Shown here piece by piece: positions 26,165 to 36,238 of a stretch of 64,000 bases of DNA (the first letter of the stretch is position 1; each line of letters opens with the position of its first letter). This DNA is from Oceanicola sp. (lineage in GTDB: Bacteria > Pseudomonadota > Alphaproteobacteria > Rhodobacterales > Rhodobacteraceae): assembly GCA_022447275.1 (NCBI GenBank), contig JAKVBK010000010.1, positions 1 to 64,000 on the forward strand, given 5' to 3'. The notes under the pieces were generated by a model. The model saw only the letters and a list, made by a program, of their open reading frames with translations, was not told where the DNA came from and ran no database searches. The position numbers and the translations under genes were made by a program.

Positions 26165-26278
26165 ATGACTGATCCCAAGAGCCCCGGCAACCCATTGTCG
26201 TTTCCAGACTTTCCCTACTGGTCGGAGCGATTTGCCTACGATATAGTCACCCCACGCGACAGGGGGACGCAGGCGTGA
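26165..26278 (+). CDS. Micro-ORF of 37 residues upstream of xpaC
   Basis: This short frame encodes an aromatic, acidic peptide with FPDFPYWSERFAYD in its middle. It does not look like a shadow translation. Its stop overlaps the GTG start of the next micro-ORF in the classic four-base GTGA arrangement. An in-frame ATG at 26135 (47 residues) is an alternative start; neither start has a strong ribosome site. No hydrophobic segment is present, so it would be soluble or peripheral. No family is recognised. It could be a leader peptide or a small subunit of the module that follows. Confidence 0.45.
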   Translation: MTDPKSPGNPLSFPDFPYWSERFAYDIVTPRDRGTQA

Positions 26279-26361
26279 CAGACTCCGGATTACAGAAACT
26301 GGCCTTCGTGCTTTTAATGGCATTGATGATCTATGTTGCCGTAACTTCAGGAGGCGCCTGA
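26275..26361 (+). CDS. 28-residue single-pass membrane micropeptide
   Basis: A GTG start preceded by AGGGGGA at seven bases opens a 28-codon frame. The peptide is almost entirely one transmembrane helix (LAFVLLMALMIYVAV) with a short polar N-terminus and a glycine-rich end. Its stop overlaps the xpaC ATG by one base (TGATG), and its start overlaps the preceding micro-ORF stop. The strong ribosome site plus overlaps at both ends make translation likely. No family is recognised. It may assist assembly or regulation of the four-helix XpaC-like protein. Confidence 0.6.
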   Translation: MTDSGLQKLAFVLLMALMIYVAVTSGGA

Positions 26362-27266
26362 TGGCTCAAAGATACTCTGGCGCCTACAGTCCGAACGCGA
26401 ACAAGCAATCCGGTGGAGGGGCCCCTGGCGGCCCGCCCCCCAGAGCGCGCCCGATGGCAGGCCAGAAGCCAACCAAAGCCGGGGCGCGGGTTAACTTCAC
26501 TTTCATATTGCCTCTGGCCTTCCTGATCCGGGCCTTTGCCTCGGAGCCGGTTGCGATGGCGACCTACCTGCTCGCCGTGGGCCTCCTGCTGCTGGCCGCA
26601 TGGATGACCCGTGAGGGACTGAAGGCCGAAGATGCCTATGCCGCGCGAAAGGTGGCCCGGCGCCCCGCCATGCCGCGCAAGATATTCGGCTCTGTCCTGA
26701 CCGGGCTCGGCCTTGCGGTCGCAGGGCTTGCGGGCCACGGCATGACCGATGCCATCATCTTTGGCGTGCTGGGCACCGCTTTGCACTTTGGGGCTTTCGG
26801 GCCAGACCCGATGAAAGACAAAGGCATGGAGGGCATCGACACCTTCCAGCAAGACAGGGTTGCGCGCGCAGTCGAAGAAGGCTTGGGCCATCTCGACGCC
26901 ATGCAAGACGCCATCCTGCGCACCCGTGACCGCGACCTGCAGAACAGGGTCGACAGCTTTGGGGAGACCGCCCGCACCCTCTTCCGGACGGTGGAGGACG
27001 ATCCGCGCGATTTGACAGCCGCCCGCAAATATCTGGGCGTCTATCTCAAGGGTGCCCGCGACGCCGCCGTTAAGTACACGGAGTTGACGGCCAATGGCCC
27101 CAACCCGGACGCGCGGGCGTCGTTCATTGCCTTGCTCGATGACCTCGACAGTAATTTTGCCGCCAGAACCAAATCTTTGCTGCTGGATGACAGGACCGAT
27201 CTCGATGTCGAGATTTCCGTTCTGCGTGACCGGCTGGCCCGTGAGGGGGTGCGGGTCGATCCCTGA
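26361..27266 (+). CDS. xpaC: XpaC-like membrane protein (5-bromo-4-chloroindolyl phosphate hydrolysis family)
   Basis: This 301-residue protein has a glycine/proline-rich cytoplasmic start and four predicted transmembrane helices in two hairpins (about 44-60, 65-82, 107-125, 129-146). A helical, charged C-terminal half follows from about 155 to 301, predicted to be cytoplasmic. It matches the XpaC family, named after a Bacillus gene affecting hydrolysis of an indolyl phosphate dye; a true hydrolase activity is doubtful and no catalytic motif is visible. Genes of this family are often next to telA, as here (57 bases). It is translationally linked to the upstream micropeptide. Confidence 0.8.
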   Translation: MAQRYSGAYSPNANKQSGGGAPGGPPPRARPMAGQKPTKAGARVNFTFILPLAFLIRAFASEPVAMATYLLAVGLLLLAAWMTREGLKAEDAYAARKVARRPAMPRKIFGSVLTGLGLAVAGLAGHGMTDAIIFGVLGTALHFGAFGPDPMKDKGMEGIDTFQQDRVARAVEEGLGHLDAMQDAILRTRDRDLQNRVDSFGETARTLFRTVEDDPRDLTAARKYLGVYLKGARDAAVKYTELTANGPNPDARASFIALLDDLDSNFAARTKSLLLDDRTDLDVEISVLRDRLAREGVRVDP

Positions 27267-27323
27267 CGGGCGCAGTCACCCTTTTTGAAACCACAAAACG
27301 CCCCGTCCAAACCGGAGATCCCG

Positions 27324-28523
27324 ATGTCTGACACAACGCGAACGAAAGCCCAGGAATCCGCAACCGAAGTACAGGCGGTGGCCGCCCAGCTTCTGCCGGA
27401 GCCCGTTCCGGCCCATGAGGTTGTTCCACTGGCCGATGCTGCGCCGGAGCAGTCAGAAGCGATCATGACACGGATCAGCGAGTTGGACATGAGCGACACC
27501 GGCTCGATCGTCGCCTTTGGCTCCGCCGCACAGGGCGAACTGCAGCAGATCAGCCAAGCCATGCTGGCCGATGTGAAAAACAAAGACGTGGGCCCCGCAG
27601 GCGACAGCCTGCGCTCGATGGTCGGGGCCATCCGGGGCTTCTCGGTCTCGGAACTCGACGTGCGGCGCAAACGCTCGTTCTGGGAAAAGCTGATGGGACG
27701 CGCTGCCCCCTTCTCAAACTTCCTGTCGCGCTTCGAAGAAGTGCAGGGCCAGATCGACAAGATCTCTGACGATCTGCTGGAGCACGAGCACACGCTACTC
27801 AAGGACATCAAGTCGCTCGATATCCTGTATGAGAAGACGCTGAACTTTTACGACGAGCTGGCGCTGTACATTGCCGCTGGCGAGGAAAAGCTGCGCATTC
27901 TCGACAGTGAGGAAATCCCTGCAATGGAAGCCGCTGTGACGGCTGCACCGGAAGAGGACCAGGTGATCAAAGCCCAGGAACTGCGAGACCTGCGGGCCGC
28001 GCGCGATGATCTGGAGCGCCGGGTGCATGATCTTAAATTGACGCGCCAGGTGACCATGCAGTCGCTGCCCTCGATCCGGCTGGTGCAGGAGAATGACAAA
28101 TCCCTCGTCACCAAGATTAATTCCACCCTGGTGAACACGGTGCCGCTGTGGGAAACCCAACTGGCACAGGCGGTCACGATCCAGCGCTCGCGGGAGGCGG
28201 CCGAAGCCGTGCGCAGCGCCAATGATCTGACCAACGAACTGCTGCAGGCAAATGCCAAGAACCTGCGCGAAAGCAACAAGGTGGTCCGCGAAGAAATGGA
28301 ACGCGGCGTGTTTGACATCGAGGCCGTGAAGGTCGCCAATGCTGAGCTGATCGCAACCATTGAGGAAAGCCTGCAAATCGCCGACGACGGAAAGAAGCGC
28401 CGGGCAGAAGCAGAGGGTGAACTGGTCAAGATGGAGGCAGAGCTGCGCGACACGCTGGCCTCCGCCAAGGCGCGCAAGACAGGCACGGGCGACGTGGCAG
28501 CCACGTCGGTGCCTGAGGCCTGA
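27324..28523 (+). CDS. telA: TelA-family toxic anion resistance protein
   Basis: This 399-residue cytoplasmic protein is mainly alpha-helical. It has an acidic, alanine-rich start, the GSAAQGELQQISQAML segment and long coiled-coil stretches, and matches the TelA/KlaA family linked to tellurite and other stress resistance. How these proteins act is unclear. The start at 27324 follows a GGAG site. It lies 57 bases after xpaC and 12 bases before the DUF2927 lipoprotein gene, so the three are probably one transcript. Comparative work on tellurium-resistance networks places TelA and XpaC together in membrane-linked stress responses. Confidence 0.88.
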   Translation: MSDTTRTKAQESATEVQAVAAQLLPEPVPAHEVVPLADAAPEQSEAIMTRISELDMSDTGSIVAFGSAAQGELQQISQAMLADVKNKDVGPAGDSLRSMVGAIRGFSVSELDVRRKRSFWEKLMGRAAPFSNFLSRFEEVQGQIDKISDDLLEHEHTLLKDIKSLDILYEKTLNFYDELALYIAAGEEKLRILDSEEIPAMEAAVTAAPEEDQVIKAQELRDLRAARDDLERRVHDLKLTRQVTMQSLPSIRLVQENDKSLVTKINSTLVNTVPLWETQLAQAVTIQRSREAAEAVRSANDLTNELLQANAKNLRESNKVVREEMERGVFDIEAVKVANAELIATIEESLQIADDGKKRRAEAEGELVKMEAELRDTLASAKARKTGTGDVAATSVPEA

Positions 28524-28535
28524 TCCCGCATCCCA

Positions 28536-29462
28536 GTGTCCTTGTGGCAGCGCATAGGGGCAGGTCTTCTGCCATTGGCCTTGGCGGCCTGTCAGGTTGG
28601 CGCTCCGGCGCCTTCCCCCCTGCCCATTGCGCCGCCTGAGGCCCCAGCGGTCGCCCCGTCAGAGGCCTCGCAGGCCTTGTCGCGCCACTATGCACGCGTG
28701 CAGGAAGACCTCGTCTCGCAGGGCTTGCTGCGCCGCGATACCGGGCTCGATATTCCCCTGTCCTCGTCGCGGCTGGCCGAAACCTTTCTGACCGTTGCCC
28801 TGTTTGACGAATATGTCCGGCAGGGCGATCGGCTTGTGCCGCAGGCAACCCAGACGGTTTTGCGCCGCTGGGACATGCCGGTGCGGGTGTCTCTTCGCTT
28901 TGGCGCCAGCGTCCCCGAGGCCCAGCGCGGCACTGACAGGCGCACAGTGGCCGCCTACACGCGACGCTTGTCGCAGGCGACAGGTCATCCGGTAATGCTG
29001 TCGGAAAGCCGGCCCAATTTTCATGTGTTTGTGCTCAATGAAGATGAGCGGCTGGACTACGACGATGAATTGCGCGCAGCGCTTCCGGGCATCGATGCCA
29101 CCACCTTGCGCACGATCCGCACCTTGGCGCGCGATACCTTCTGCGTGGTCTTTGCCTATGGCTCTGCAGATACGGGCACATTTTCCCGGGCGCTGGCGAT
29201 CGTGCGGGGTGAGCATCCGGATCTTTTGCGCGGCTCCTGCCTGCATGAGGAGATTGCCCAGGGGCTGGGCCTTGTGAATGACAGCCGCACCGCGCGCCCC
29301 TCGATTTTCAATGATGACGAGGAATTCGCCTATCTGACAGGCCACGACGAGCTGCTTTTGTCGATGCTCTATGATCCGCGCATGCGTCCGGGCATGACCC
29401 TGCAACAAGCCCGCCCCATCGCCTATCAGATCGCCGCCGAGAAACTGGGCGGGGAAAGCTGA
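28536..29462 (+). CDS. DUF2927 lipoprotein
   Basis: This 308-residue protein starts at a GTG (28536), 12 bases after the telA stop. The signal peptide ends in LALAAC with C19 as the predicted lipidation site, so it should be anchored to a membrane on the periplasmic side. A proline-rich stretch (about 23-45) leads to a DUF2927 domain. The domain holds the conserved segment CLHEEIAQGLGLVNDS and a following NDDEEFAYLTGHDELLL block. HEE with the later H and D residues resembles a metal site, but the family has no proven enzyme activity. It is the secreted member of the xpaC-telA block. Confidence 0.8.
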   Translation: MSLWQRIGAGLLPLALAACQVGAPAPSPLPIAPPEAPAVAPSEASQALSRHYARVQEDLVSQGLLRRDTGLDIPLSSSRLAETFLTVALFDEYVRQGDRLVPQATQTVLRRWDMPVRVSLRFGASVPEAQRGTDRRTVAAYTRRLSQATGHPVMLSESRPNFHVFVLNEDERLDYDDELRAALPGIDATTLRTIRTLARDTFCVVFAYGSADTGTFSRALAIVRGEHPDLLRGSCLHEEIAQGLGLVNDSRTARPSIFNDDEEFAYLTGHDELLLSMLYDPRMRPGMTLQQARPIAYQIAAEKLGGES

Positions 29463-29680
29463 CATGGCACAGGCTGGCCGGGTCTTTACGCGGCCTTCAG
29501 GCCGGCTGCGCAAAGGTGCAACGGCGTGCATTTTCAAGATGGCACGCAAAGCGCTTCACAGGACGGGGGCGTGCGCATAGCATCTAACCTTGAAACCGTG
29601 CGGCGGGCCCGCGGCAAACCACAGCCATTTGCCCCAGCACATTGCGATACATACCGGGTCTTTTCGAAAGGATAACCGCC

Positions 29681-30841
29681 ATGGGCATTTTCGACTTTCT
29701 CTCCGGCCAGTTCATCGATGTCATCCACTGGACCGATGACACCCGAGACACGCTGGTCTGGCGGTTTGAACGTGAAGGGCATGAGATCAAGTACGGCGCC
29801 AAGCTGACCGTGCGCGAGTCGCAGGCCGCTGTTTTTATCCATGAAGGCCAGCTGGCCGATGTGTTCACGCCCGGGCTGTACATGCTCGAAACGAACAACA
29901 TGCCGATCATGACGTCCCTGCAGCATTGGGATCACGGGTTTAAATCCCCCTTCAAATCCGAGATCTACTTCATCTCGACCCAGCGCTTCGGGAACCTGAA
30001 ATGGGGCACCAAAAACCCGGTGATGCTGCGTGATCCCGAGTTTGGCCCCACCCGGATCCGCGCCTTTGGCACCTATGCGATCCGCGTCACCGATCCGGCA
30101 CGCTTCATGGCGGAAATCGTGGGCACCGATGGTGAGTTCACGTTGGACGAGATCCGCTTCCAGATCCGCAACATCATCGTGCAGGAAGCCTCACGCGTGA
30201 TGGCCAGCTCTGGCATCCCAGTGCTGGACATGGCCGCCAACACCGCGGACATGGGCAAGCTGATCGCCACGGAAGTGTCCAAGGTGCTGACCGATTACGG
30301 TGTGATGATGCCGGAATTCTACATCGAAAACATCTCGCTTCCGCCAGCGGTAGAAGCCGCGCTCGACAAGCGCACCTCCATGGGCCTTGCGGGTGATCTG
30401 GGCAAGTTCACCCAGTATTCGGCCGCCGAAGCCATGACGGCCGCCGCCCAGAACCCCAATGGCGGTGGCGGCATGGGGGCCGGCCTTGGCATGGGAATGG
30501 GCATGGCCATGGCAAACAATATGATGGGCGGCGCACAGGGCGGGCCGTGGGGCGCCGCACCACAGGCACAGCCACAGGCCCCCGCCCCGGCGGCTCCGGC
30601 CGCCGCAGCGCCACCGCCGCCGCCCCCCGTAGAAGAGCATGTCTGGCACATTGCCACCGATGGGGAGGTCACCGGCCCCTATTCCAAAGCCCGGCTTGGC
30701 CGCATGGTGGCCGAGGGCAGCTTCGCCCGCGATACCCATGTCTGGACCGCCGGACAGGATGGCTGGAAGAAAGCCGAGGATGTGACAGAGCTTGCCCGCC
30801 TGTTCACAATTCTGCCGCCACCGCCGCCGCCGGGCGTCTAA
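29681..30841 (+). CDS. SPFH-domain protein with C-terminal GYF_2-like domain
   Basis: This 386-residue protein has an SPFH/band-7-type domain at about 20-250, close to the Bacillus YdjI or 'virion core protein' subgroup (start MGIFDFLSGQFIDVIHWTD). A glycine/methionine-rich then proline/alanine-rich linker follows (about 262-325). The C-terminal GYF_2/DUF4339-like domain (about 328-378) carries GPYSKARLGRMV and a DGW motif. SPFH proteins form membrane-associated rings or scaffolds; GYF_2 domains bind proline-rich peptides. The next gene starts with a poly-proline stretch, a possible ligand. The ribosome site GAAAGGA supports the start. The name 'virion' does not imply a phage. Confidence 0.85.
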   Translation: MGIFDFLSGQFIDVIHWTDDTRDTLVWRFEREGHEIKYGAKLTVRESQAAVFIHEGQLADVFTPGLYMLETNNMPIMTSLQHWDHGFKSPFKSEIYFISTQRFGNLKWGTKNPVMLRDPEFGPTRIRAFGTYAIRVTDPARFMAEIVGTDGEFTLDEIRFQIRNIIVQEASRVMASSGIPVLDMAANTADMGKLIATEVSKVLTDYGVMMPEFYIENISLPPAVEAALDKRTSMGLAGDLGKFTQYSAAEAMTAAAQNPNGGGGMGAGLGMGMGMAMANNMMGGAQGGPWGAAPQAQPQAPAPAAPAAAAPPPPPPVEEHVWHIATDGEVTGPYSKARLGRMVAEGSFARDTHVWTAGQDGWKKAEDVTELARLFTILPPPPPPGV

Positions 30842-30955
30842 CAGGCGTGGCGCCGGCCCCATCTGCGGGCCGGCACGCGCTTTGCAACGGCCCTGTCCGA
30901 CGCACGCGCCCCGCCGTGACGGCCCTTAAAGCCACCCCTTGCTCGGGAGATCCGC

Positions 30956-32161
30956 ATGACGCAGCCTCCGCCCCCACCCCCGCCGACCGATCTGGACAGG
31001 AGCGACGGCGCCGTGCTGCGCAGCGATGTCACCGCGGGCGCAATCGAAGAGCACCGTTTTCCCTGCTCGAACTGCGGCTCAGACATGCGCTTTGCCCCGG
31101 GTGGCGCGGGGCTTGAATGCCCCCATTGTGGCGCCACAGAGGCGCTTGATCCCGATGACAGCGCACCCGATGCGATCCCCGAGTTGGATTTTCGCCAAGC
31201 GCTGGCCGACCAACTGCCCGCCGCTCAGATGGAAGAAACCCGCGTTCTGTCCTGTGATAGCTGCGGCGCTCAGGTCGAGTTTGACGCCGTCACCCATGCC
31301 AAGGAATGTCCGTTCTGCGCCTCACCCGTCGTGACGGATACCGGCACCCATCGCCATATCAAACCCCGCGCCGTGCTGCCCTTTAGCCTGAAAGGTAAGC
31401 AAGCCCGCGATGCCATGGAGGCGTGGCTGGGCAAGCTGTGGTTTGCCCCCAATGGACTGAAGGAATTCGCGCGCAAGGGGCGGCCTCTGCAGGGCATTTA
31501 CCTGCCCTACTGGACATATGATGCCGACACAAAAACCCAGTTCACCGGACGGCGCGGCGATGTCTACTACGTAACCCGGACGCGCGTCGACTCTGACGGG
31601 AATACAGAAACCTATCAGGAAGAACAGGTTCGTTGGACAAATGTGTCAGGCCGGGTTGCCCGCGTCTTTGATGATGTGCTGGTTCTGGCCTCCCAAAGCC
31701 TGCCGCGCGAGCATACAGAAGCGCTCGAGCCTTGGGATCTGTCCGAACTGCGCCCCTATGCGCCCGAGTTCCTTGCAGGCTTTCGGGCCGAGGGCTACGC
31801 GATCGGGCTGGAAGATGGCTATGACCATGCCCGCCAGAAGATGGATGCGGTGATCCGAAGGGATGTCCGCTTCAAAATCGGCGGCGACCGACAGAAAATC
31901 ACCTCAATGGATACGGATGTCTCGGATGTGACGTTCAAGCACGTGTTGTTGCCGGTCTGGCTGGCGGCCTACCGGTTCAGGGGCAAAGCCTATCGCTGTG
32001 TGATCAACGGACGCACCGGGCGGGTGCAGGGCGAACGGCCATGGTCGGTCGCTAAGATCGCTCTGGCTGTTTTGGCCGGGTTCCTGCTGGCGGCTACGAT
32101 CGGCTATGTCTACGCCGTCAGCCAAGGCGCATTGCCCGCGCCGGCCATCCCCGGCCTTTAG
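30956..32161 (+). CDS. Double zinc-ribbon membrane protein (YdjG-like)
   Basis: This 401-residue protein starts with a run of seven prolines. Two zinc ribbons follow (C37/C40 with C55/C58, and C100/C103 with C118/C121), then a central beta-rich region with YLPYWTYDADTKTQF, and one C-terminal transmembrane helix at about 366-388. It resembles proteins often misannotated as primosomal N'-like helicases and, in layout, Bacillus YdjG. There is no helicase motif. The N-terminal proline run could be the ligand of the GYF_2-like domain of the SPFH protein encoded 114 bases upstream. The pair probably forms a membrane complex. Confidence 0.75.
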   Translation: MTQPPPPPPPTDLDRSDGAVLRSDVTAGAIEEHRFPCSNCGSDMRFAPGGAGLECPHCGATEALDPDDSAPDAIPELDFRQALADQLPAAQMEETRVLSCDSCGAQVEFDAVTHAKECPFCASPVVTDTGTHRHIKPRAVLPFSLKGKQARDAMEAWLGKLWFAPNGLKEFARKGRPLQGIYLPYWTYDADTKTQFTGRRGDVYYVTRTRVDSDGNTETYQEEQVRWTNVSGRVARVFDDVLVLASQSLPREHTEALEPWDLSELRPYAPEFLAGFRAEGYAIGLEDGYDHARQKMDAVIRRDVRFKIGGDRQKITSMDTDVSDVTFKHVLLPVWLAAYRFRGKAYRCVINGRTGRVQGERPWSVAKIALAVLAGFLLAATIGYVYAVSQGALPAPAIPGL

Positions 32162-32209: not shown

Positions 32210-32343
32210 CCCTCCCCGCCGCACAACGCCGTTGAAGGCTGCCCAAAAGCCTAGACGGTGCAGCATCACCGGGCTATCGCTTGCCGGAACAACGGCTCCG
32301 TTGCGCCCTGCCTCGCAAGCCAGCCCTCAAGAAAGACAGCCCC

Positions 32344-33270
32344 ATGATCCTCTGCGCCGGCGAAGCCCTGATCGACATGCTGCCCCGCGAAAGCGCAGAT
32401 GGCACGGCCACATTGGCCCCCACAGCAGGTGGTGCGGTTTTCAATACGGCAATCGCTCTGGGCCGCCTCGAGGTGCCCACCGGCTTTGCCTGCGCCCTCT
32501 CCGATGACATGTTCGGCCGCCAGTTGCGCCGCACCCTGGCCGACAGCAACGTGGACACGACCCATTGTGCAACAGTTGCCCGCCCATGCACGCTGGCCTT
32601 TGTCGAATTGATCGACGGGCACGCGCGCTATGCATTTTACAACGCGGGCACCGCTCTGAAAGAGATGGGCCCCCAAGAGTTGCCCAGCGATCTGTCAGCG
32701 ATCAGTGCCCTGTTCCTCGGCGGGATCTCCCTGATGGATGAGCCCTGTGGCACGGCCCTCGAAAGCCTTGTGGATGCGCTGCCAGACAGCGTGCCCCTGA
32801 TGTTTGATCCCAATATCCGGCCCAGCTTTATCGCCGACGCGCAGGCCTATCGTGCCCGGTTTGATCGGATCACCGCGCGCGCAGACATCGTGAAACTCTC
32901 CGATGAGGATTTAGAGTGGCTGACCGGCACCGCCGATCCGTCTGATGGAGTCAGCCAGCTGATCGATCGGGGCGTTTGTCTTGTGTGCCTCACCCGGGGC
33001 GCAGCAGGGGTCACCGCCTACACGGCCTCCGGCAGCCTTTCGGTTCCGGCCCCTCAGGCCCATGTCGTGGATACCGTTGGCGCCGGAGACACGTTCAACG
33101 CGGGCCTGCTCGCCGGGCTGCACCGCGCGGGCCACCTGGCCCGGGGCGCGCTGGCCGCACCGGATGAAACAGCCCTGCGGGACAGCCTCTCGCTTGGCGT
33201 GACCGCCGCCGCCGTTGTTGTGTCTCGCGCGGGCGCCAATCCCCCCACCCTTGCAGAACTGGAAGGCTAA
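32344..33270 (+). CDS. PfkB-family carbohydrate kinase (fructokinase-like)
   Basis: This 308-residue ribokinase-type sugar kinase starts [14 protein letters not shown], as fructokinases do. The substrate segment [16 protein letters not shown] is followed by the anion-hole and base motif [12 protein letters not shown] near the C-terminus. The exact sugar cannot be read from the sequence. It lies two bases before dtd, so the two are co-transcribed. No sugar transporter or regulator is adjacent. Confidence 0.85.
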
Positions 33271-33272
33271 TC

Positions 33273-33710
33273 ATGCGCGCACTTGTACAACGTGTGACCG
33301 AAGCATCCGTCCGCGTGGACGGCACGGTCATCGGTGAAATCGGGCACGGGGTTCTGATCCTTGTCTGTGCCATGCAGGGCGATGGTCCGGACGTCTCTGC
33401 CAAGCTGGCCGCCAAGATCTCCAAGCTGCGCATATTCAAGGATGACGCGGGGCGGATGAACCGATCCCTGCTTGATACGGGCGGTGCGGCACTGGTTGTT
33501 TCTCAATTCACGCTGGCGGCTGATACGTCGCGCGGAAACCGGCCGGGTTTCTCTGCGGCAGCGCCCCCCGAGGAGGGCGCAGCGCTCTATGAGACCTTCA
33601 AGGCCGACATGGCCAGCTTGGGCATAGAGGTGGCCTCTGGCCAGTTCGGGGCCGACATGGCCGTTGCACTGATCAATGATGGGCCGGTCACGATCTGGCT
33701 CGACATATAG
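33273..33710 (+). CDS. dtd: D-aminoacyl-tRNA deacylase
   Basis: This 145-residue enzyme removes D-amino acids wrongly charged onto tRNA. The full family length and both signature motifs are present: [17 protein letters not shown] (about 77-93) and the Gly-cisPro motif NDGPVTIWL near the C-terminus. It is coupled to the preceding kinase gene by a two-base gap. A short inverted repeat GGCGCC(6)GGCGCC overlaps its stop codon (33710-33727) but has no T-run. Confidence 0.96.
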
Positions 33711-33856
33711 GCGCCGGACACGGCGCCCCCTGAGTTGCACAAAAAACAGGCAGCCCCCGGGGGCCACGCCCTGCGCCCCCCGCAGAATTCCTGTGAAATA
33801 GCCGCGAGCGCCTGCCGGTGCTTGCGGCCCGTTCATCTTTGGTTAACGGTCCGAGT

Positions 33857-35290
33857 ATGAGCGATACACCCCGGTTCTTTGACGAATTGGCGGGCACGGG
33901 CGACACGGCCCGGTCCCCCTATGCCGACTATGCCACCTGGTTCGAACAGGAGAGCATTCCCGACCTGCGCAAGAAGGCCGCGCAAGCGGAAAACTTTTTC
34001 CGTCGTACGGGCATCACCTTCAATGTCTATGGCGCGCAGGATGCAGATGAACGGCTGATCCCCTTCGATGTGGTGCCACGCGTGATCTCCAACCGCGAAT
34101 GGCAGAAACTGACACGGGGCATCGAGCAGCGGGTGCGGGCGATCAACGCCTTTCTGCATGACATCTACCACCGGCAGGAAATCATCCGGGCGGGGCGCAT
34201 TCCTGCGGAGCTGATCGCCAACAATGAGGCCTTCTTGCCGCAGATGATCGGCGTTGAGCCCCCCGGCGGTGTCTACACCCACATCGTGGGCACCGACCTT
34301 GTGCGCACCGGTGAAAACGAGTTCTTCGTGCTCGAAGACAATGCGCGCACACCCTCCGGGGTCAGCTACATGCTGGAAAACCGCGAAACCATGTTGCGCA
34401 TGTTCCCAGAACTGTTCGCACGCATCCGCGTCAAACCGGTGCAGGACTATCCCACCCGGCTGCTGCGCGCCCTGCAGGCCAGCCTGCCTCCGGCCTATAC
34501 CGGCTCTGGCAAACCCACGGTGGCCGTGCTCACCCCCGGCATCCACAACTCAGCCTATTTCGAACATTCCTTCCTGGCCGAACAGATGGGCGCAGAATTG
34601 GTCGAGGGCCATGATCTGCGGATCGAGAACGGACGGGTCGCCATGCGCACCACCCGGGGCTATACGCCGATCGATGTGCTCTACCGCCGGATCGACGATG
34701 ATTTCATCGATCCGCTGAATTTCCGGCCTGACAGCATTCTGGGCGTGCCCGGCATCTTTGACGCCTACCGTGCCGGCAGCATCACCCTGGCCAACGCTCC
34801 GGGCACCGGCATCGCCGATGACAAAGCCATCTACAGCTACATGCCCGAGATCGTTCGGTTTTACACGGGCGAAAAGCCGATCTTGGAAAACGTCCCAACC
34901 CATCGCTGCTCGGACCCTGAAGCCTTGGCCTATGTGCTGGACAACCTGGAATCCCTCGTGGTCAAGGAAGTGCACGGCTCTGGCGGCTACGGAATGCTGG
35001 TCGGGCCTGCAGCTTCCAAGCGCGAAATCAAGGCCTTCCGGGCCAAGCTCGTCGCAAAGCCCGCCAACTATATCGCCCAACCAACGCTGGCGCTTTCAAC
35101 GTGCCCGATCCTGACAAAAGCAGGGCTGGCACCGCGCCACGTGGATTTGCGCCCCTTCGTGCTCGTGCGTCCCGACGGGATCGATCTTACGCCCGGTGGC
35201 CTGACACGGGTGGCCCTCAAGAAGGGCAGCCTGGTGGTGAACTCCTCCCAAGGGGGCGGCACCAAGGACACTTGGGTTCTGGAGGACTGA
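33857..35290 (+). CDS. Circularly permuted ATP-grasp protein of the Anbu operon
   Basis: This 477-residue protein belongs to the COG2308 type of circularly permuted ATP-grasp ligases. Visible pieces are ENEFFVLEDNARTPSGVSYM, the central VLTPGIHNSAYFEHSFLA, and VKEVHGSGGYGMLVGP, the glycine-rich ATP loop with its lysine. Members are thought to form peptide-like bonds. The ATG at 33857 lies just after TTTGGTTAACGG, a typical AT-rich promoter-edge sequence in this order. It starts a four-gene operon with the alpha-E, transglutaminase-like and Anbu genes; the next gene begins six bases after its stop. Confidence 0.9.
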   Translation: MSDTPRFFDELAGTGDTARSPYADYATWFEQESIPDLRKKAAQAENFFRRTGITFNVYGAQDADERLIPFDVVPRVISNREWQKLTRGIEQRVRAINAFLHDIYHRQEIIRAGRIPAELIANNEAFLPQMIGVEPPGGVYTHIVGTDLVRTGENEFFVLEDNARTPSGVSYMLENRETMLRMFPELFARIRVKPVQDYPTRLLRALQASLPPAYTGSGKPTVAVLTPGIHNSAYFEHSFLAEQMGAELVEGHDLRIENGRVAMRTTRGYTPIDVLYRRIDDDFIDPLNFRPDSILGVPGIFDAYRAGSITLANAPGTGIADDKAIYSYMPEIVRFYTGEKPILENVPTHRCSDPEALAYVLDNLESLVVKEVHGSGGYGMLVGPAASKREIKAFRAKLVAKPANYIAQPTLALSTCPILTKAGLAPRHVDLRPFVLVRPDGIDLTPGGLTRVALKKGSLVVNSSQGGGTKDTWVLED

Positions 35291-35296
35291 CGCGCA

Positions 35297-36238
35297 ATGC
35301 TGGGAAAGACCGCCGCCGGCCTCTATTGGATGTTCCGCTATCTCGAGCGGGCAGAGAACACCGCCCGCCTGATCGAGGGCGGCTTTCGCATCGCCCTGAC
35401 CCGCCCTGACAGCGCCGACGACGAATGGGCGGGCGTGCTGGACAGCATCGGCGCCCGGAGCCCCTATCTGGCCCGTCATGAGACCTTCGAGCAGGGACAG
35501 GTGGTCAATTTCCTGCTGCGCGATCCAGCCAACCCCACCAACGTGCTGGCAGAAATCAAACTCGCCCGGGATAATGCACGGCTGGTGCGCACGGCCCTGT
35601 CGCGCGAAGTCTGGGAAGCGGTCAATGATTGCTGGATGCAGCTCAACGCGGCGCTGTCGCGCCCGGTACCACTGCGTGACTTGCCCGAAGTGCTGGGCCT
35701 GATCCGGCAGCAATCTGCGCTGGTGCGTGGCGCATTGCACGGAACAATGCTGCGCAACGACATCTTCAATTTCGCGCGTCTCGGCACCTTCCTTGAACGG
35801 GCGGACTACACGGCCCGCATCATTGACGTGAAGTATTACGTTCTGCTGCCGACGGTCGCCCAGGTCGGATCCCAGGACGACAACATGCAATGGGAACACA
35901 TCCTGCGGGCCACAGGCGGGCAGGCTTCGTTCAAGTGGCTCCACGGGGGCGAAGTGTCTGCGCGCGCAATCGCGGATTTTCTAATCCTTGATGGCCGGAT
36001 GCCGCGCTCGATCGCGTTCTGTGTCGGCAAGATGCAATCCAACCTCAACTACCTCGCGCGGGAATACGATCTGCGCAAACCCTGCCACGACATGGCGGAC
36101 GCCCTTCTGGGCCGCCTGAGTTCGGCCACGATCGACACTGTCTTCGAGCACGGCCTGCACGATTTCAATCTCGATTTTGTCAGTCGTCTGTCTGCGCTTG
36201 GGGCGCAGATCGAAACAGACTATCGGTTCGACCGATGA
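35297..36238 (+). CDS. Alpha-E domain protein of the Anbu operon
   Basis: This 313-residue all-helical protein (COG2307/alpha-E type) starts LGKTAAGLYWMFRYLERAENTARLIEGG, the characteristic first helices. It has a second ERADYTARIIDVKYYVLL repeat-like segment in the middle. The family always occurs with the permuted ATP-grasp protein. It may modify or bind the same peptide product, but no activity has been shown to my knowledge. It is six bases from the ATP-grasp gene and 34 bases from the next. Confidence 0.9.
   Translation: MLGKTAAGLYWMFRYLERAENTARLIEGGFRIALTRPDSADDEWAGVLDSIGARSPYLARHETFEQGQVVNFLLRDPANPTNVLAEIKLARDNARLVRTALSREVWEAVNDCWMQLNAALSRPVPLRDLPEVLGLIRQQSALVRGALHGTMLRNDIFNFARLGTFLERADYTARIIDVKYYVLLPTVAQVGSQDDNMQWEHILRATGGQASFKWLHGGEVSARAIADFLILDGRMPRSIAFCVGKMQSNLNYLAREYDLRKPCHDMADALLGRLSSATIDTVFEHGLHDFNLDFVSRLSALGAQIETDYRFDR

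Follow-up and report, generated by a model that had tools for sequence, protein, structure and literature searches.

In a 64,000-nucleotide stretch of Oceanicola sp. DNA (GCA_022447275.1, contig JAKVBK010000010.1, positions 1-64,000 of the forward strand; hereafter, the window), we have analyzed a block of plus-strand genes encoding, in this order, a micropeptide, an XpaC family protein, TelA, a DUF2927 lipoprotein, a GYF-domain SPFH protein and a zinc-ribbon membrane protein (ZnR). The block very probably constitutes one module. By analogy with better-known systems, it could form a scaffold beneath the inner membrane, protecting or repairing it independently of PspA, a reading to which we give about an even chance. 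An initial annotation had listed seven frames in this region. Six of them were confirmed at the places given, namely the second micropeptide and the five proteins, whereas the first micropeptide was dropped.

The retained micropeptide (26275-26361, 28 amino acids, GTG start, one predicted transmembrane segment) is followed by XpaC (26361-27266; PF10112, E 4e-25), which combines four hydrophobic segments with a cytoplasmic helical part. The hydrophobic stretches found by hydropathy (approximately residues 40-65, 60-87, 107-134 and 130-148) were consistent with four transmembrane helices, in agreement with the earlier description of XpaC as a four-helix membrane protein. TelA (27324-28523; PF05816, E 3e-105) is a putative cytoplasmic protein of long helices, and the DUF2927 protein (28536-29462; PF11150, 4e-59) starts with a signal of the lipoprotein type, in which the Cys is nearly invariant. 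The SPFH protein (29681-30841) belongs to the Band_7_1 family (PF13421, 1e-97) and bears a C-terminal GYF domain (PF14237, GYF_2, 3e-19) and a proline-rich tail. The last gene encodes ZnR (30956-32161), for which the Pfam search returned no model above its cut-off; it comprises two zinc ribbons, recognized by Cys pairs that were invariant in the alignment, a conserved globular domain and a single, C-terminal transmembrane segment. TelA and SPFH displayed zero hydrophobic stretches of the transmembrane type. In block order, the genes are spaced by -1, 57, 12, 218 and 114 bases.

The distribution of these genes supported their treatment as a unit. Among the 142 alphaproteobacterial genomes of our class sample, strong TelA matches were present in 11, XpaC in 9, strong Band_7_1 matches in 7 and ZnR in 6. 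These sets were nested, with all 9 XpaC and all 7 Band_7_1 genomes lying within the 11 TelA genomes, and all 6 ZnR genomes within the 7 with Band_7_1 (hypergeometric P for co-occurrence, 1e-12 to 2e-9). The 6 ZnR genomes were exactly those carrying the XpaC-TelA-SPFH-ZnR quartet on one contig. In the Rhodobacteraceae, TelA was found in 54 of 61 genera, almost always as a single copy. XpaC lay directly upstream of TelA in the window and in 30/30 short loci from the family, and DUF2927, SPFH and ZnR were located downstream of TelA in the majority of the 20 longer loci. A neighborhood analysis across the alphaproteobacteria, as the initial annotation had proposed, thus found that the set stays together, and independent occurrence of the quartet genes was not encountered there. 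The proposed membership of DUF2927 held in part: the gene adjoins TelA only in Rhodobacteraceae-like loci, whereas four other alphaproteobacterial families have the quartet without it. Quartets lacking DUF2927 were found in Geminicoccaceae, Gammaproteobacteria and Campylobacterota.

A wider scan with the SPFH protein as query, covering one genome per species (84,980 species), gave 80 loci; these are the best matches, hence an uneven sample, and their taxon groups were assigned by hand from the record titles. The full quartet was present in 26 Rhodobacteraceae-like loci, 5 other alphaproteobacterial loci, 9 gammaproteobacterial or unspecified proteobacterial loci, 3 campylobacterotal loci and 1 unassigned locus. 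Nearly all quartet loci outside the Rhodobacteraceae came from contigs of metagenome-assembled genomes. The block could conceivably be a row of unrelated neighbors brought together by chance. Frames for a PfkB-type kinase and a Dtd-like protein do trail it in many relatives as well, but the four core genes keep their order where they reappear in other classes, and they are found together across genomes, which excludes chance clustering for practical purposes and leaves this explanation hardly credible.

Where the quartet is split, its two halves, XpaC-TelA(-DUF2927) and SPFH-ZnR, often both remain in the genome. XpaC-TelA was found away from the SPFH locus of the same genome in Solirhodobacter, Roseovarius and Methylotuvimicrobium, and one Paracoccus has TelA-DUF2927 elsewhere in the genome.

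The retained micropeptide is real and conserved, as judged from its position and its pattern of change by codon position. Its stop codon overlaps the xpaC ATG by one base, and a small open reading frame with a transmembrane segment ending at the xpaC start was found for 58 of 71 xpaC genes. The same count gave 0/79 for telA, 0/48 for DUF2927, 0/102 for SPFH and 3/89 for ZnR, against a background of 50/5000 random ATGs. Close pairs of micropeptides differed at codon positions 1, 2 and 3 by 0.247, 0.126 and 0.453, respectively, a pattern showing that the frame evolves as a coding gene under purifying selection. Longer forms exist, with up to ~70 residues and two transmembrane segments, and a similar small transmembrane peptide occupies the same position in several gammaproteobacterial loci. 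A membrane peptide of 28 residues is easily missed. Paracoccus ferrooxidans, the one relative for which the gene table was read, has no XpaC gene at the corresponding place, and its table is hence uninformative on how the micropeptide is annotated.

The first micropeptide of the initial annotation (ATG, 26165-26278, 37 amino acids) was rejected as a gene. A tblastn search of all fetched loci, none of which came from another genome of the same genus, returned no convincing relative, and the frame overlaps a promoter-like element on the plus strand (TCCCTACTGGTCGGAGCGATTTGCCTACGAT, 26212-26242). The pattern YCCCTAS-N13-24-SCTAnnnW recurred in 10 of 46 Rhodobacteraceae loci (window included), 61-73 bases upstream of the start of the second micropeptide, for a background of ~0.001 per 160 bases. 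A scan for the sigma-70 consensus gave zero sites ahead of the operon. The region is probably promoter DNA, judging by the recurrence of this pattern.

Regarding the XpaC-TelA half, the homologues in Listeria and Lactococcus are induced by envelope stress (PMC12791056, PMC3139573), and TelA was earlier proposed to build sub-membrane structures (PMC7824862). The AlphaFold2 model of TelA (mean predicted local distance difference test score, pLDDT, 74.6) contains two long helices spanning residues 129-207 (79 residues) and 210-307 (98 residues). We have considered TelA as a homologue of PspA/ESCRT-III, but this was unsupported, as the coiled-coil matches from the fold search were weak and mixed, with BAR domains included. 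The model and its fold matches serve here as a lead only. Sequence searches identified no solved structure of TelA or XpaC.

The cited role of a family relative raises the alternative that the block mainly confers tolerance to tellurite or other oxyanions, with TelA as effector, the remaining proteins in support, and a chemical rather than a general membrane stress as the challenge. PMC6955997 (citing O'Gara 1997) names telA of Rhodobacter sphaeroides, which belongs to the same bacterial family, as a chromosomal determinant of tellurite resistance, and this gene is probably the orthologue of the TelA studied here because the family is almost always single copy. However, the block contains no reductase, transporter or thiol enzyme, and the homologues are responsive to bacteriocins and to the overproduction of membrane proteins (PMC12791056, PMC3139573). 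The SPFH and ZnR partners also point to the membrane, and tellurite sensitivity could be a secondary effect. We regard this alternative as rather unlikely.

XpaC-TelA looks like a core with varying partners, since in other alphaproteobacteria (L051, L056, L160) TelA adjoins a protein that combines SBP_bac_11 and VWA domains, with XpaC nearby. In one further locus (L157:7513-10296), the gene after XpaC-TelA encodes a GYF_2 protein in which no SPFH domain was recognized, and two others (L127, L133) have tandem XpaC genes ahead of TelA. In the Sinorhizobium jumbo phage Phosso (PV764938.1, L184:2885-7065), genes for a YqiJ-like protein, a flotillin-type SPFH protein, XpaC and TelA are consecutive, so that XpaC-TelA and an SPFH protein were apparently brought together independently here. 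The Phosso TelA query of viral contigs gave zero matches, and the TelA alignment query revealed six viral TelA loci, two of them with XpaC.

Such phage-borne genes would suit a membrane barrier against phage or superinfection, and Ter/TelA proteins have been proposed to block the entry of phages or xenobiotics (PMC7824862). Nevertheless, the six block proteins had 0 family matches in PADLOC, viral copies of the SPFH half were not found in the IMG/VR contigs searched, and the single copy is kept across the family, unlike typical defense genes. A barrier of this kind thus seems quite improbable.

In the SPFH-ZnR half, the C-terminus of SPFH consists of the GYF domain flanked by proline runs, and the prolines at its end were nearly invariant in the alignment. 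GYF domains bind proline-rich peptides, so that a GYF-proline contact linking SPFH subunits is plausible from the sequence. Compared with solved structures by sequence, ZnR matched generic zinc-ribbon segments only. A distant second relative of ZnR is encoded elsewhere in the Oceanicola sp. genome (G000:C78:76333-77352). Four loci (L036, L041, L043, L046) have a multi-transmembrane frame, cytochrome b561-like by eye, inserted between SPFH and ZnR, and on a Vibrio coralliilyticus plasmid (NZ_CP048695.1, L185) SPFH-ZnR lies beside TIR-domain, TRAFs-binding and WD40-like genes.

Bacillus subtilis recruits PspA to its membrane through the SPFH protein YdjI and two membrane proteins, YdjG and YdjH (PMC8581546). 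The ±10 kb around each of the SPFH loci examined, as far as the contigs reach, contained no PspA gene, and the genome containing the window (95.6% complete) gave zero PspA matches. Among the 61 Rhodobacteraceae genomes, 11 had PspA above the cut-off. PspA was also considered as the neighbor of SPFH-ZnR where TelA is missing; there was none, and several such genomes have XpaC-TelA elsewhere. Among 24 genomes with a TelA-less SPFH locus, strong PspA matches were present in 7, strong TelA matches in 9 and both in 1. This is suggestive of an alternation between PspA and TelA in those 24 genomes, which is confounded by ancestry.

The same B. subtilis system brings in the alternative of a constitutive organizer of membrane or cell-wall machinery, acting on cell shape or protein complexes with no stress response. 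According to PMC8581546, the loss of YdjG/YdjH delocalizes peptidoglycan synthesis; the Lactococcus XpaC is annotated as a cell-morphology protein (PMC3139573), and the block is single copy in most family genomes. Yet about nine in ten genomes of the class sample lack it, so that it answers no general housekeeping need, and the homologues are stress-induced (PMC12791056, PMC3139573). We consider this alternative unlikely.

The DUF2927 lipoprotein was matched to no solved structure by its sequence profile. The AlphaFold2 model (pLDDT 86.8) gave matrix metalloproteinases and snapalysin as best Foldseek matches in the PDB (probability 0.96-0.99, target template-modeling score ~0.6, best E 6e-3). 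These enzymes are metzincins, which carry the motif HExxHxxGxxH/D. The conserved residues of DUF2927, E238-E239-x-x-Q242-x-x-G245-x-x-N248, lie on and just past the helix of residues 229-243, a placement relative to the metzincin site that was derived from motif and secondary structure rather than from superposed coordinates. The predicted fold of DUF2927 may be that of the metzincins, and the protein has the glutamate of the active-site helix and the glycine turn, but its zinc-binding His motif is replaced (EExxQxxGxxN) and the protein is a lipoprotein. EExxQxxG was present in all 44 DUF2927 frames read, and one EExxH occurred in a separate alignment (L032). An active protease was rejected because the zinc-binding His ligands are lost. 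A metzincin-like predicted fold lacking these ligands makes DUF2927 probably a pseudo-protease, with a binding or sensing part as the simplest reading of the model. Two DUF2927 copies were found at five loci (L079, L085, L102, L110, L112), and a second DUF2927 protein is encoded elsewhere in the Oceanicola sp. genome (G000:C44:8619-9218).

Taken as a PspA-independent scaffold, the block could work as follows. XpaC, together with the translationally coupled transmembrane micropeptide, would act as membrane receptor for TelA. The latter, a long helical-hairpin protein, would line the membrane or polymerize beneath it as the structural element of the scaffold. ZnR would anchor the SPFH oligomer, whose subunits may be joined by GYF domains through the proline-rich tails. 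The XpaC-TelA and SPFH-ZnR halves would meet at the membrane in one complex, with TelA taking the place that PspA has in the B. subtilis PspA-YdjGHI system, and in Rhodobacteraceae the pseudo-metzincin lipoprotein would contribute a part that binds or senses in the periplasm. Envelope or oxyanion damage would be the likely trigger, and a function in envelope stress is suggested by the behavior of the homologues.

Three observations weigh against such a scaffold. In other phyla of the wide scan, SPFH-ZnR mostly occurs without TelA and, being found so in several phyla, is not strictly TelA-dependent. Ten genomes of the family hold PspA and TelA together; thus, the two are not mutually exclusive. 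Finally, confidence in the TelA model is moderate, and no solved membrane-remodeling protein matched it significantly. A more specific version of the scaffold is possible but doubtful, namely a PspA-independent membrane-repair machine built on an SPFH-zinc-ribbon platform, where a membrane-shaping, helical-hairpin TelA stands in for the ESCRT-III-like PspA. The micropeptide would be a conserved subunit of this machine and, in Rhodobacteraceae, the DUF2927 pseudo-protease would be its periplasmic sensor.

Downstream of the block, positions 32338-36238 of the window encode a sugar kinase of the PfkB type and an ATP-grasp protein of the circularly permuted kind, together with further frames that we take to be an alpha-E protein and Dtd.

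TelA bears the name of toxic-anion resistance protein, with a mechanism lacking, and XpaC and DUF2927 are without agreed function. A fixed operon joining XpaC-TelA to SPFH-zinc-ribbon genes gives the three proteins a testable context, that of a candidate membrane-protection complex in a bacterial family mostly devoid of PspA. For experiments, the conserved micropeptide offers a small and direct target, and the split into half-modules, along with the flotillin-bearing phage variant, predicts which proteins should make contact. As to the novelty claimed in the initial annotation, the combination is new, whereas its parts have precedent in the XpaC/TelA envelope-stress genes and, with PspA, in YdjI/YdjG of Gram-positives. 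The block is therefore a new combination or variant of known parts, not a wholly new kind of system. In the accessible, non-subscription literature, we found no paper treating TelA and SPFH as a module, nor one mentioning DUF2927.

Several known systems resemble parts of the block. Like the XpaC-TelA pair of Firmicutes (Listeria lmo1966-lmo1967, Lactococcus llmg_1115-1116), it has adjacent XpaC and TelA genes, to which it adds SPFH-ZnR, the transmembrane micropeptide and, in Rhodobacteraceae, DUF2927. With the R. sphaeroides locus it shares TelA and the bacterial family; the accessible text of PMC6955997 names telA alone and does not link neighbors to it. Regarding the Ter stress system, TerB, TerC, TerD and TerF were absent among the block proteins, to which this search was confined. 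The flotillin-NfeD/YqiJ operons also couple an SPFH scaffold to a membrane partner, but the SPFH protein of the block is of another family, with no Flot domain, and the block has no YqiJ or NfeD gene.

The likeness to pspA-ydjGHI of B. subtilis (PMC8581546, PMC11237479) lies in an SPFH gene adjoining that of a zinc-ribbon membrane protein, and the PF13421 family matched the B. subtilis control genome too. ZnR, with its two zinc ribbons and transmembrane segment, is by its architecture a candidate counterpart of YdjG. The B. subtilis complex is thought to protect the membrane, and it is in that role that we liken the block to it. The two nonetheless differ in composition. The block is without PspA, and no YdjH/TPM domain was found among its proteins; its SPFH protein has a GYF domain at the end, in contrast to the zinc ribbon described for the B. 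subtilis partner; and its operon has XpaC and TelA where that of B. subtilis has PspA and YdjH.

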